The notes under the pieces: generated by a model
What the model saw: only the letters and a program-made list of their open reading frames with translations
What the model was told of the DNA's origin: nothing
The model's database searches: none
Assembly (NCBI GenBank): GCA_017469885.1
Contig: JAFUFO010000016.1
Coordinates: 1 to 64,000, forward strand
From: Solobacterium sp.
GTDB taxonomy: Bacteria; Bacillota_I; Bacilli_A; Erysipelotrichales; Erysipelotrichaceae
DNA length: 64,000 bases
Direction of reading: 5' to 3'
Position numbers and translations under genes: made by a program
Part shown: one piece after another, positions 22,455 to 34,544 of the stretch
How positions within the stretch are numbered: the first letter of the stretch is position 1
Layout of the letters: the number at the start of each line of letters is the position of its first letter

Positions 22455-22483
22455 TTGCCTGGGATGGGGAAACGTGATTAAAT
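22455..22483 (+). promoter_or_regulatory. Predicted promoter of a leaderless transcript
   Basis: TTGCCT (22455-22460), 17-bp spacer, TTAAAT (22478-22483) with TGA before it. The expected start coincides with the ATG at 22491, and no ribosome site is seen. Confidence 0.45.
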
Positions 22484-22490
22484 CAGTATC

Positions 22491-24218
22491 ATGGTCGAAG
22501 AGACAATCTCACTCCGTGTGATACAGGAAGCCAAGGAAGAAGAACGGGAAGCGATGGGCGAACTTGTCCGTTCGTTTCAGCCGGTGCTTTTTTATATTGC
22601 GTCCTGCCACCTGAAATCCGACCAGCTGATTAAAGCGACCGTAAAAACCTGTCTTGCAAAACTGTTCGATCTGCTTTCCGAAACGGAAGATCTTTCTTCC
22701 TTCAACGGAAAGGCGATGACCATGGTTGTACGGGCATGCCTGAATGCCGCACTGACGGAAGACCGCAATCAGAATTTTTTCTCTGCCAGAGGTTCCGACC
22801 CGAAGGAAGCAGAGGCAGTGTATACCGCCGCCGATGAAGTCCCAAAACCGTCGGAAGGCATTACCGAACGGGAAGCAATGAATGTCACAGTGCGGATGCT
22901 GGGAAAACTGCCGGACGATCAGCGGATGATCTTTGTCATGCGTTATCTTGACGGCATTCCGTTTGCACGGATTTCCAGTATGATTCATATTCCGGCCGAA
23001 CAGCTGGAAAAGCGTGCCCAGCTGGCCAAGCAGGGACTCGCCTCTGCGACCGGCCGCACCGTTGAAGAAGTCTTCGGCATCGTCTCCCTTGCCGAACAGA
23101 ATAAATATCTTGTGATCGATGACCGAAAGCCGGAGCCTGCAGTCACGGAAACACCCCTGTCCGCACCGGCAGCCCGGAAATCCCTGCGTCCGCTCTGGAT
23201 CACGGCGGGGATCCTGCTTGCGGCAGCCGCCGTCGGAACCGGCATGTGGATCTTCCGCAAGCCGGAAGAAGTCTCTGCACTTCGTTACCTTACCGCATCC
23301 TTTACCGGAATTGACGGCCTTGGGACCGCCGAGATCACCGCACAGGAATCCGGAGACAAACGGCTGGATGCCATCATCGAAAACCGGTCCTGCATTTTGC
23401 GGGATGCCAAGGGAAATGAAGCAACCGATCATCTTTCAAACGGGGATCGGCTGACGCTTGCCTGTACCTTTGATGAACAGGCATTAAAAAAAGCGCATCT
23501 TGCGCTTACGGAAACGGAAACGGCGGTTTCCGTGGAAGGTCTTACGGAACCGAAGCCCATCGATCTGTTTGAATCCGTGCATCTTGAAGGCAGCCTGAAT
23601 GAAGAAACCGGGGAACCGGAACTCACCGCTGTCAGTGATGATCCTTCCCTTTCCGGTCTGACCTATACGATCAGCGAAGAAAGCGAAGCCGGTGTTCTTG
23701 TCACGGCGGAAATCGATGAAGAAGCCCTGCGCTCCCATGGTTATGTCACGGAAGAATATACACACCTTTTTCCGAGAGATGAAATTCCTTCTTCCCTGCA
23801 GTATGCTTACCGGCAGAAACTGGTCGCAGAAGGCCTGCAGGAAACCGCGGACCATTTTGATGAATACGGCGCTGAAGTCGCCAACGGCACGGATCCCCTG
23901 ATCAACGAACTGGCGCAGAAATATATCGGCCGCGCCGGTGCGTGCAATGAAATTGCGAATGCGTTTATTTATGAACTGTACGGCGTCCATGTAAAAACCG
24001 GCTACAGCCGGCAGAATACCTATGAGGTTTCAGAGCCGGAAGCCGGTGATCTGGTTTATTACTACGATGCGGCAGGCAATTACACGCATGTCGCAACCTA
24101 TCTTGGAAACGGACTTGTGCTCAACGGCAACTACAGCGACGGCAGAGCCCATATTACATCCATGTATGAATCCATGTATGCGCAGAATCCGATGGTTTTC
24201 CTGCGGGTGGAACGCTGA
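22491..24218 (+). CDS. Sigma-factor-like domain, transmembrane helix and NlpC/P60-like domain in one protein
   Basis: 575 residues in three parts. Residues 1-200 resemble an ECF-type sigma factor: helical region 2-like 10-90, and region 4-like 135-185 (KLPDDQRMIFVMRYLDGIPF, then a helix-turn-helix and basic residues). A membrane helix lies at about 234-255 (LWITAGILLAAAAVGTGMW) after basic residues, placing the N-terminus inside. Residues 260-465 are an unrecognised exported region. Residues 470-575 resemble NlpC/P60: GACNEIANAFIYELYG (Cys485), GDLVYYYDAAGNYTHVATYL (His533), then VLNGNY (possible third residue). The gene stands alone, convergent with the Nudix gene. Sigma-like DNA binding and peptidase activity are inferences; it could instead be degenerate in either part. 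Confidence 0.75.
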   Translation: MVEETISLRVIQEAKEEEREAMGELVRSFQPVLFYIASCHLKSDQLIKATVKTCLAKLFDLLSETEDLSSFNGKAMTMVVRACLNAALTEDRNQNFFSARGSDPKEAEAVYTAADEVPKPSEGITEREAMNVTVRMLGKLPDDQRMIFVMRYLDGIPFARISSMIHIPAEQLEKRAQLAKQGLASATGRTVEEVFGIVSLAEQNKYLVIDDRKPEPAVTETPLSAPAARKSLRPLWITAGILLAAAAVGTGMWIFRKPEEVSALRYLTASFTGIDGLGTAEITAQESGDKRLDAIIENRSCILRDAKGNEATDHLSNGDRLTLACTFDEQALKKAHLALTETETAVSVEGLTEPKPIDLFESVHLEGSLNEETGEPELTAVSDDPSLSGLTYTISEESEAGVLVTAEIDEEALRSHGYVTEEYTHLFPRDEIPSSLQYAYRQKLVAEGLQETADHFDEYGAEVANGTDPLINELAQKYIGRAGACNEIANAFIYELYGVHVKTGYSRQNTYEVSEPEAGDLVYYYDAAGNYTHVATYLGNGLVLNGNYSDGRAHITSMYESMYAQNPMVFLRVER

Positions 24219-31795: not shown

Positions 31796-31865
31796 ATTAT
31801 ATCAAGTACGGCGCAGATGACCGAACCTCGCACCGGGTGAGTTTTGCGTTCATCTGTTTTATAAT
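31796..31865. promoter_or_regulatory. Divergent promoters of the polymerase cassette and the CHAP gene
   Basis: On the minus strand TATAAT (complement of 31796-31801) with TGA before it lies 8 bases from the ATG at 31787. On the plus strand TATAAT (31860-31865) lies 10 bases from the ATG at 31876. Both predict very short or absent leaders. Confidence 0.55.
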
Positions 31866-31875
31866 GCATATGTTT

Positions 31876-33282
31876 ATGTCCAGGCGGAACCACTTGATTA
31901 CAGGGCTGAGTGTCCTGATGCTTATCGTGACAGCCGGATTTCCCTTCCGGGTTCATGCGGAAGGTGAAGATCCGGATTTTTCCGATACCAATTACTGGAA
32001 CTCCCTCTGCACAGATACCGATTCCCTTTCCGATGAAGATGTGAAGAACTGCCAGGCCTATACGCAGTATATGCAGGAGCGCAATTCCGAACTGCAGTCC
32101 CAGATTGCGGACATTGACGCACGGAAGGAAGAAATCTCCGCAAAGATCTCGGATTATGACAATCAGATCGCACAGTTCAATGCGCAGATCGAGGGCATCA
32201 CCGGCATGATCCAGGATTTAAGCATGCAGATAAAGGCGGTGGAAGAACAGATTGCGGATATCCAGAACCGGATCGATGCCAATCAGAAAGCCATCGTGGA
32301 AAAACAGAATGATGTCGATGCACTGAAGGAAAAGGTCGCAAAGCGTCTTGTGGAAGAACAGAAGACCATGCGTACGTATCAGTTTCTCGACGTCCTGATG
32401 GGTGCCGCCTCCTTTGAAGACTTTGTCCGGCTCGCAAACGGCATGAATGATATTTATGCCCATGACAGTCATTCTCTTGAACAACTGACGCAAAGCATCG
32501 ACTCCCTGCACGAAATGGAAGACCAGCTGCGCAGCGATCAGGAGGAAGTAAAGACAATGGAGACTGAGCTTGCGGCAGGCAAACAGATGCTGGACTCCCA
32601 GCAGGCTGCCCTGCTTTCTTCCCGCTATGAACTGCAGATCCTCCAGCAGAGCTACAATGAACAGCTTGCGGCTGCGGATCAGGAAAAGACCAGCGCAGAA
32701 AATGCGATCGCGGCAAACCAGTCGCAGATTGGCAATATCAAAGACTCTATCGCAAACCGTCCGGAGCCGACTCCCACTGCGGTCCCCGAGACAACTGCTT
32801 CTGCGGATTCCGGGGAGAACAGCACTCCCGACACAACGCCGGAATCCTCCGACACCGGGGCAGCCCCGGCATCCACGGCAACCCCGAAGCCTGCCTCCAC
32901 ACCGGCTTCTTCGTCCGGCGATTCTTCGACACCTCCGGAAACCGGCAATACCGACGGAAATCCCTATTACGGCGGCTGGGCGAACTGTACATGGGGGACC
33001 TGGCAGCTGGTTCATGATACGCTCGGCATTTCCCTGCCCGGATGGGGCATGGCAGGCAACTGGATGAATGATGCGGCACGGTCCGGTTATGCGACGGGCA
33101 GCACGCCGAAGGTTTACTCCATTGCGGTATATTCCTGGCATGTCGGCTTTGTGACGGCAGTAGACGGCGACCGTGTCTACATCAAGGAAGGCAATTATCT
33201 GGGTCATTATTACGAACGCTGGGTTCCGGTGGAGGGACTGCCCTACAGCGGACAGACCTGCCTTGGCTATATTTACCTCTGA
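31876..33282 (+). CDS. PcsB-like secreted coiled-coil CHAP-domain peptidoglycan hydrolase
   Basis: The ATG at 31876 gives a normal signal peptide (MSRRNHLITGLSVLMLIV, cleavage after VHA). About 468 residues. A long coiled coil (roughly 45-270) is rich in Gln, Asp and Lys, and a Thr/Pro/Ser linker (about 285-350) follows. The C-terminal CHAP domain has Cys in WANCTWGTW, His in YSWHVGFV and acidic/Asn in IKEGNYLGH. The layout matches PcsB/CwlO-type hydrolases that split the septum, often under FtsEX control. Upstream in-frame starts lie inside or before the TATAAT box. It has its own terminator. Confidence 0.9.
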   Translation: MSRRNHLITGLSVLMLIVTAGFPFRVHAEGEDPDFSDTNYWNSLCTDTDSLSDEDVKNCQAYTQYMQERNSELQSQIADIDARKEEISAKISDYDNQIAQFNAQIEGITGMIQDLSMQIKAVEEQIADIQNRIDANQKAIVEKQNDVDALKEKVAKRLVEEQKTMRTYQFLDVLMGAASFEDFVRLANGMNDIYAHDSHSLEQLTQSIDSLHEMEDQLRSDQEEVKTMETELAAGKQMLDSQQAALLSSRYELQILQQSYNEQLAAADQEKTSAENAIAANQSQIGNIKDSIANRPEPTPTAVPETTASADSGENSTPDTTPESSDTGAAPASTATPKPASTPASSSGDSSTPPETGNTDGNPYYGGWANCTWGTWQLVHDTLGISLPGWGMAGNWMNDAARSGYATGSTPKVYSIAVYSWHVGFVTAVDGDRVYIKEGNYLGHYYERWVPVEGLPYSGQTCLGYIYL

Positions 33283-33383: not shown

Positions 33384-34544
33384 ATGACAAAAGTTGATGT
33401 TATATCCGGCTTCCTCGGAGCCGGAAAAACAACACTGATCTCCAAGCTGGTCAAGGAAGTATTCCCAGGCCAGAAGATCGTGCTTGTGGAAAACGAATTC
33501 GGTGAAATCGGAATTGACGGCGGCTTTCTGAAGGAAGCCGGCATTGAGATCCGGGAAATCAACAGCGGATGTATCTGCTGCACACTGAAGGGTGATTTTG
33601 AGGAAAGCCTCAAACAGGTCGTTGAAACCTATGAGCCGGAACGGATCATCATTGAACCGTCCGGTGTCGGAAAACTCTCCGATATCCTGCGGGCAGTAAA
33701 AACCGTGGATGGTCTGGAACTCTCCAGCTACTCCACCGTTGTGGACGGCAACCGTGCCAAGGTCTATCACCGGAACTTCAAGGAGTTCTTCGATGATCAG
33801 ATTGCGACTGCCGCATGCGTTATTCTCTCCCGCACTCAGAGCATTTCCGAAGAGAAGCTTGCGGATGATGTCGCCATCATCCGGGAACTGAACCCGAATG
33901 CCCGCATCATCACCACACCGTGGGATGAACTCAGCGGACAGGCCATCTTCGATGCGATGACCGGAAGCTCCAACGGCTTCCCGGAAGACCTCGGCGAAGA
34001 TGAGGATGAGGACGAAGACGAACACGAACATCATCACGATCATGATGAAGAGGAAGAACATGAGCACCATCATCACCATGACCATGACGACGATGAGGAT
34101 GAACATGAACACCATCATCACCATGACCATGATGAGGATGAACACGAGCACCATCATCACCATCATGAACACGAAGATGTAAATGCCGGACTTTCCGAAG
34201 GCAACCGCATCCATGTCGGCGAAGATGAACATGAACATCATCACCATCACCACCCTCATCACCATGGTGAACATGATGCGGATGAAGTATTCGATTCCAT
34301 CGGTATCGAAACCATAAACAAGTACTCCGAGGAAGAGATCCGCACTGCCCTCTCCGGTCTTGGCGAAAACATTATCCGTGCCAAGGGAATCGTCCCGAAT
34401 CATGACGGCAAGTGGCTGTTCTTCGATTATGTTCCGGGTGACATCGATATCAGGGAAGGCAAGCCTGCCTATACCGGTCTGATCACCGTCATCGGCGAGA
34501 AGGTTGATATCCCGCTGATGAAGGAACTGTTCGGAGTTCACTGA
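33384..34544 (+). CDS. CobW/ZNG-type GTPase with a large histidine/acid-rich metal-binding insert
   Basis: 386 residues. Walker A is GFLGAGKTT (9-17), the metal-site motif is SGCICCTL (Cys63, Cys65, Cys66), and the Walker B region contains ERIIIEPSGVGK. The usual NKxD base-recognition motif reads SRTQ. Residues about 205-299 are almost only His, Asp and Glu in HEHHHHH-like runs, an intracellular metal-binding region. A CobW C-terminal domain closes the protein. G3E GTPases of this kind insert or buffer zinc, cobalt or nickel. The ribosome site is AGAAGGG. It is coupled (TGATG) to a second GTPase gene. No Zur-type palindrome was recognised upstream. Confidence 0.92.
   Translation: MTKVDVISGFLGAGKTTLISKLVKEVFPGQKIVLVENEFGEIGIDGGFLKEAGIEIREINSGCICCTLKGDFEESLKQVVETYEPERIIIEPSGVGKLSDILRAVKTVDGLELSSYSTVVDGNRAKVYHRNFKEFFDDQIATAACVILSRTQSISEEKLADDVAIIRELNPNARIITTPWDELSGQAIFDAMTGSSNGFPEDLGEDEDEDEDEHEHHHDHDEEEEHEHHHHHDHDDDEDEHEHHHHHDHDEDEHEHHHHHHEHEDVNAGLSEGNRIHVGEDEHEHHHHHHPHHHGEHDADEVFDSIGIETINKYSEEEIRTALSGLGENIIRAKGIVPNHDGKWLFFDYVPGDIDIREGKPAYTGLITVIGEKVDIPLMKELFGVH

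Follow-up and report, generated by a model that had tools for sequence, protein, structure and literature searches.

What can a sigma factor fold do when it is built, in one polypeptide, onto a membrane helix and an exported cell wall peptidase domain? The question is raised by a gene at nucleotides 22491-24218 of the window, the whole 64,000-nucleotide stretch of contig JAFUFO010000016.1 (assembly GCA_017469885.1) that was analysed here; the host is a rumen relative of Solobacterium (Erysipelotrichaceae). The reading that we favour, with a probability of roughly 0.5 and on the strength of sequence comparison and a structure model, is that the product is a membrane-anchored, one-protein sensor or regulator of the cell envelope, built from an extracytoplasmic function (ECF) sigma factor and no longer serving as a sigma subunit. 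A preliminary description of the locus had reported the three-part order of the protein; that observation was confirmed, and the interpretation attached to it is partly supported.

Anatomy of the protein

The open reading frame (ORF) starts with ATG, encodes 575 amino acids and contains zero internal stops, and an in-frame TAA at 22479 excludes a longer start. Its features are as follows.

22491-24218 (+): whole gene, encoding a 575-amino-acid sigma-like / membrane helix / NlpC-P60 protein (single ORF, orthologues)
22491-22775 (+): sigma region 2-like domain, residues 1-95, with the fold kept and the core-binding and -10-reading residues lost (structural match to 1or7, no Sigma70_r2 match, residue table)
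22821-22838 (+): motif YTxxDE (residues 111-116), conserved in the linker that joins the sigma2- and sigma4-like domains (alignment)
22872-23045 (+): sigma region 4-like helix-turn-helix, residues 128-185 (Sigma70_r4_2 match, SigW and sigmaE structure matches)
23046-23189 (+): juxtamembrane linker, residues 186-233, with a conserved helix and no Cys or His (model, alignment, sequence)
23199-23255 (+): single membrane helix, about residues 237-255, predicted to lie N-in / C-out from its flanking charges (hydrophobicity, sequence)
23259-23870 (+): two exported beta-rich modules, residues 257-460, with invariant Cys301/Cys325 (model, alignment)
23871-24215 (+): NlpC/P60 domain, residues 461-575 (Pfam match, structural match to 4xcm, orthologue identity)
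23943-23945 (+): Cys485, presumed nucleophile (conserved in six orthologues; N-end of predicted helix 485-497)
24087-24089 (+): His533, presumed catalytic (conserved in six orthologues; aligned with the CwlO His)
24123-24125 (+): Asn545, likely third catalytic residue at His+12 (conserved in six orthologues; aligned with the CwlO Asn)

The N-terminal half matched the NCBIfam profile TIGR02937 (sigma70-ECF) over residues 20-184 (47.8 bits, cut-off 42.9) and Pfam Sigma70_r4_2 over residues 135-181 (34.2 bits, cut-off 25.7), while the window protein gave no match to Pfam Sigma70_r2, the profile of region 2. The domain make-up is that of an ECF (group 4) factor, with sigma2 and sigma4 only and neither sigma1.1 nor sigma3, and the region 4 helix-turn-helix is shared by all nine aligned members (Sigma70_r4_2 match in 9/9).

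The protein was modelled with AlphaFold from nine sequences (mean predicted local distance difference test score, pLDDT, of 75.8; low around the membrane helix). In the model, sigma2 and sigma4 are helical, the two beta modules span about residues 259-430, and the chain ends in an alpha/beta domain. Using VIA-align, residues 1-91 of the model resembled E. coli sigmaE (1or7; Z 11.6), residues 5-193 SigW in its anti-sigma complex (5wur; Z 11.3, 152 residues, root-mean-square deviation (rmsd) 6.3) and residues 465-574 the NlpC/P60 peptidase 4xcm (Z 12.2, rmsd 2.6, 108 residues). When the whole model was searched, the matches were taken up by the two end domains and not by the middle modules. A model of the sigma part alone, computed from six close orthologues, was poorer than the nine-sequence model (mean pLDDT 62) and was set aside.

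The sole hydrophobic segment of the chain has its best window at residues 237-255 and is flanked by Arg and Lys on its N side. A zinc-finger anti-sigma domain within the protein was considered and rejected, there being no zf-HC2 match and neither Cys nor His in residues 186-233.

At the C-terminus, Pfam NLPC_P60 (PF00877) matched residues 508-569 (30.7 bits, cut-off 23). Cys485, His533 and Asn545 are invariant in 6/6 full-length orthologues, that of the window included, and Asn545 aligns with the Asn at His+12 in CwlO (8wt3), which is catalytic there. In fold and in its Cys-His-polar set the protein is like the peptidases CwlO, 4xcm and Acd24020, all of which, unlike it, are without a sigma-like cytosolic part. 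CHAP, FecR and carbohydrate-binding assignments were unsupported by Pfam.

The preliminary description had proposed an uninterrupted 575-residue frame, an ECF-sigma-like N-terminus with a helix-turn-helix at 135-185, one membrane helix at 234-255 and an exported NlpC/P60-like domain with Cys485 and His533, with no anti-sigma gene adjacent. All of these were borne out, and the model matched solved ECF sigma factors and NlpC/P60 peptidases; of the two sigma profiles, region 4 scored over its cut-off and region 2 did not appear. The two beta modules and the C301/C325 pair are additions to that anatomy.

Orthologues, region 2 and the membrane-anchored family

The same three-part order recurs, as an identical uninterrupted fusion, in full-length orthologues from at least 5 further gut Erysipelotrichaceae genomes (93, 59, 53, 51 and 46% identity). 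Their records, L056-L060, belong to Solobacterium sp. metagenome-assembled genomes (dairy cattle duodenum, reindeer, roe deer omasum, sheep duodenum) and to an uncultured Erysipelotrichaceae bacterium; a seventh copy (L011), ended by a contig edge, comprises the sigma part only. The flanking genes mostly differ, neighbours being shared only by the closest pair and none being conserved throughout. Among the six full-length orthologues mean pairwise identity is 72% in the NlpC/P60 domain, the best conserved part of the window protein, 60% in the sigma part, 39-48% in the middle modules and 40% in the membrane helix. The ratio of nonsynonymous to synonymous substitution rates (dN/dS) in the closest pair is 0.02 in sigma2 and 0.02 in NlpC/P60. 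By these measures the sigma-derived domain is under strong purifying selection; conservation and a dN/dS of 0.02 at both ends imply that the cell has a use for each of them, which makes it unlikely that the sigma part is no more than an anchor.

What has been lost within this constrained domain are the residues with which an ECF factor binds core polymerase and reads the -10 element. Canonical members of the family, by which we mean membrane-anchored relatives with a standard region 2, carry D, D, Q, N/D, W and N at the region 2.2, 2.3 and 2.4 positions in nearly all of 12 cases, whereas 0/7 window-type orthologues keep D, D, Q, W or N there, and the replacements are largely basic. In the window protein L46, A49, K52 and T53 replace the D, D, Q and N of the core-polymerase motif (D..D..Q), and K74 and R81 stand, in an alignment-dependent assignment, at the places of the region 2.3 Trp and the region 2.4 Asn. 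Across the seven orthologues Gln has become Lys, Arg or Leu, Trp has become Lys, Arg or Gln, and Asn is Arg in 7/7. In the nine-member alignment Sigma70_r2 matched 3/3 canonical members and 0/6 full-length window-type orthologues.

Many paralogues in the genus likewise combine a sigma domain with a single membrane helix but differ in what lies outside (NlpC/P60, SH3, WG repeats, DUF3160, or VWA plus lipase); across the family these outside domains, Ig-like ones among them, are interchangeable. In most relatives of the window protein region 2 is intact. The family was defined in this analysis by a homologous sigma domain, a single membrane helix and an exported C-terminal domain, all of which the window protein possesses. 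A profile of canonical sigma parts matched the window gene (E 1.3e-21) and detected further long frames elsewhere in Erysipelotrichaceae and in another family of the order. In the 245 Erysipelotrichaceae genomes searched, sigma matches in long frames (over 330 amino acids) were found in about ten other genera; the 10 examples inspected, from five genera, all had a Pfam sigma match (below cut-off in 2/10), with a hydrophobic segment following the sigma domain. The order sigma, membrane helix, NlpC/P60 is present in L119 and L124 of genus g38, with Sigma70_r2 over its cut-off; their NlpC/P60 matches fall below the Pfam cut-off (16.7 and 21.4 vs 23 bits), with Cys/His/His at the expected positions. 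The Y(T/D)..DE linker motif is common to the window orthologues, the SH3 clade considered below and most canonical members.

In a maximum-likelihood tree the window orthologues and the SH3 clade grouped together (95/90) and were nested inside the canonical membrane proteins (98/95), the tree being midpoint-rooted and the orthologue branch long (1.8 changes per column). The topology supports descent of the window protein from within a membrane-anchored ECF-type family with a standard region 2. Because the window and SH3 clades both nest inside canonical membrane members, tethering of the sigma domain most likely preceded the loss in region 2. The SH3 clade, in which most outside domains are of the SH3 type, has lost part of the region 2 motif with the Trp kept, and is a possible second pseudo-sigma group. 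Its members are L042, L044, L047, L049 and L050; a membrane helix and an SH3-type end were seen in L042, L047, L049 and L050, and L044 is ended by a contig edge. Genus g163 has long sigma-like membrane proteins (L127 1477-3204 and L133 667-2391) in which region 4 is below cut-off and region 2 unmatched; these may be a further instance of a sigma domain decaying once tethered.

Three relatives, L061-L063, share the middle module and the NlpC/P60 domain with the window protein. The canonical L062 has lost both the NlpC/P60 Cys and His while keeping an intact sigma part, which fits the idea that outside domains of this family serve as sensors. Tentatively, at odds slightly short of even, we propose that Erysipelotrichaceae possess a large undescribed class of membrane-fixed ECF sigmas, joined without an anti-sigma domain to swappable sensors, and that the sub-clade with the window gene turned into pseudo-sigmas, as pseudo-kinases arose from kinases.

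Several observations on the family stand by themselves. L043 (1130-13594) carries four tandem membrane sigma-like genes whose sigma parts are nearly identical and whose outside parts differ, 3/4 having related repeats and SH3-like ends and 1/4 VWA plus lipase, an arrangement that we read as sensor swapping in progress. Directly upstream of canonical membrane sigma genes, and sometimes overlapping them, lies a gene for an exported, mostly lipoprotein-like protein (L061 3462-4454, L063 463-1467, L062 131-1177, L041 6079-7278, L027 196-1428). These exported proteins may be partners of the membrane sigma proteins. No Pfam match was obtained for the three of them that were tested; those of L041 and L027 carry a relative of the middle module. 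The middle module of the window protein itself also occurs behind zinc-ribbon N-termini or lipoprotein signals (L015, L035, L055; L025/L041), so it is mobile and the N-terminal part exchangeable.

Candidate functions

In the favoured reading, that of an envelope sensor or regulator, the outside NlpC/P60 domain would bind or cut peptidoglycan stem peptides, and the membrane helix would relay the state of the wall to the sigma-derived domain, either through a conformational change or through intramembrane proteolysis. Because the contacts to core polymerase and to the -10 element are gone and the domain is still strongly constrained, it would act through a partner other than the polymerase clamp, perhaps as a sigma mimic binding an anti-sigma or other regulator; alternatively, it could be a DNA binder through its sigma4 helix-turn-helix. 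For canonical relatives (e.g. L061, L063, L119, L124) a tethered sigma factor, released or unmasked by an outside signal, is more likely. A site-2 protease gene is present in the genome. With regard to the preliminary description, the loss of the core-binding and -10-reading residues casts doubt, for this protein, on its suggestion that the inside part could bind promoters or RNA polymerase. Of its alternative, a degenerate sigma domain used as a cytosolic anchor, the degeneracy stands and the passive role does not, since the domain is conserved above the helix and middle modules with a dN/dS of 0.02.

Several points weigh against the sensor or regulator. The window protein retains the sigma fold. 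Deviations from the motif also occur in some divergent ECF factors: two soluble ECF-like proteins of the same genome have Ser at the Gln position. The equivalents of the region 2.3 and 2.4 Trp and Asn were placed by an ungapped alignment of divergent sequences, and in the tree the nesting depends on midpoint rooting and involves the long orthologue branch. The site-2 protease is likewise present in 14/14 control genomes, so that its presence proves little.

A rather unlikely rival is a membrane-held wall hydrolase whose main job is peptidoglycan cutting, with the pseudo-sigma domain controlling it from inside or just holding it. The pronounced conservation of the NlpC/P60 domain (72%; dN/dS 0.02 in the closest pair), with Cys, His and Asn kept, and the loss of the residues needed by a sigma subunit would fit such an enzyme. 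A mere anchor, however, needs no 185-residue domain held at 60% identity, far above the membrane helix, and in L062 it is the NlpC/P60 Cys and His that were lost and the sigma part that stayed intact.

We regard as improbable a working tethered sigma factor, in which the domain, once freed from the membrane, would still bind RNA polymerase and direct a wall-stress regulon. The TIGR02937 score over cut-off, the prediction of both sigma2 and sigma4 folds and the intact sigma motifs of close architectural relatives argue for it, and proteolytic release has precedent, having been proposed for the ECF52 protein SCO4117 and shown for IutY. Set against these are the loss of D..D..Q and of the region 2.3/2.4 Trp and Asn in 7/7 orthologues, largely to basic residues, the missing Sigma70_r2 match, and an upstream element that resembles a sigma-A promoter of the extended -10 type and not the autoregulatory promoter of an ECF factor:

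22455-22483 (+): putative promoter-like element, TTGCCT, 17-nt spacer, TGATTAAAT (extended -10), 7 nt to the start codon (assigned from the conserved -10-like box)

An extended -10-like box (TGrTTwAAT or close) lies exactly 7 nt 5' of the start codon in 7/7 orthologues (window, L056-L060, L011), and in these seven no Shine-Dalgarno stretch is evident upstream of the start. The fixed distance of the box and the lack of an evident Shine-Dalgarno stretch suggest that the mRNA of the window gene is leaderless. A consensus promoter scan did not match the 22455-22483 element. An ECF-type autoregulatory promoter was considered and rejected: GAAAC occurs 5' of the start, but the matching -10 would sit in conserved codons, and the extended -10 box with its 7-nt gap fits the upstream region better. 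A genome scan allowing one mismatch gave only one further site.

That two genes were joined by a frameshift or an assembly error, a concern raised in the preliminary description, can be dismissed, the uninterrupted fusion recurring in independent assemblies mostly with different gene neighbours, both halves being under purifying selection and the promoter-start arrangement being conserved among the orthologues.

Known arrangements and neighbouring genes

Sigma domains fused to a membrane helix and an exported part are known in ECF48, ECF52 and ECF53 of Actinobacteria, which have an anti-sigma domain in the chain (PMC8999054, PMC5826349). ECF52 (SCO4117 of Streptomyces) bears a carbohydrate-binding module outside, and its proteolytic release has been proposed (PMC5826349, PMC8999054). 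In IutY (ECF243) of Pseudomonas putida the sigma domain is fused to a membrane-spanning regulator with an anti-sigma part and is activated by regulated intramembrane proteolysis (PMC8999054). Since such sigma-membrane-sensor fusions (ECF52, IutY) are already described, the window protein is a variant of a known arrangement. The earlier statement that no described system has this order does not hold for the order in general; it holds in so far as the described systems have an in-chain anti-sigma domain and are without NlpC/P60.

Like ECF52, ECF48 and ECF53, the window protein is a single chain of ECF sigma domain, membrane helix and exported part with no separate anti-sigma partner. They differ in having a zinc-finger anti-sigma (ZAS) domain before the membrane helix, which the window protein is without, and in being reported from Actinobacteria, whereas the present host belongs to Erysipelotrichaceae and its protein has outside beta modules and NlpC/P60 and a degenerate region 2. 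With IutY it shares a sigma domain joined to a membrane-spanning part; a FecR-like anti-sigma domain of the IutY type gave no Pfam match in the window protein at E up to 1. Canonical Erysipelotrichaceae membrane-anchored proteins (L061, L063, L119, L043) have the same order, but they keep the region 2 D..D..Q, W and N that the window clade has lost. RsiW, RsiV and RsgI of Bacillota likewise couple an exported sensor, through a single helix, to the control of sigma in the cytosol. They are membrane anti-sigma factors with a separate sigma, whereas here the sigma-derived domain itself sits in the membrane protein.

A literature search, with the ECF classification of Casas-Pastor 2021 outside its coverage, found no described sigma-membrane fusion with NlpC/P60 and none in Erysipelotrichaceae, and the Erysipelotrichaceae family is apparently undescribed. 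If anatomy reflects function, one protein would read the envelope or the surroundings, as opposed to the usual sigma/anti-sigma pair with its proteases, and sensors would be swapped by domain shuffling. The window clade would then offer a case in which to study the reuse of a sigma fold after tethering, and the idea of a tethered sigma can be tested directly on members whose region 2 is intact.

Within the window the gene stands alone, with a divergent GFO/IDH oxidoreductase gene upstream and a convergent NUDIX hydrolase gene downstream. No anti-sigma gene lies next to it, the neighbours being these two and a DUF308 membrane protein; a hidden anti-sigma gene next door was ruled out by the identities of the neighbours, which also mostly differ among orthologues.

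About 7.6 kb downstream of the sigma-like gene, nucleotides 31837-33282 encode a PcsB-like secreted hydrolase (coiled coil plus CHAP) of an ordinary kind. The product of 33384-34544 resembles, by eye, a CobW-type GTP-binding metal chaperone and has a very long stretch rich in His, Asp and Glu.
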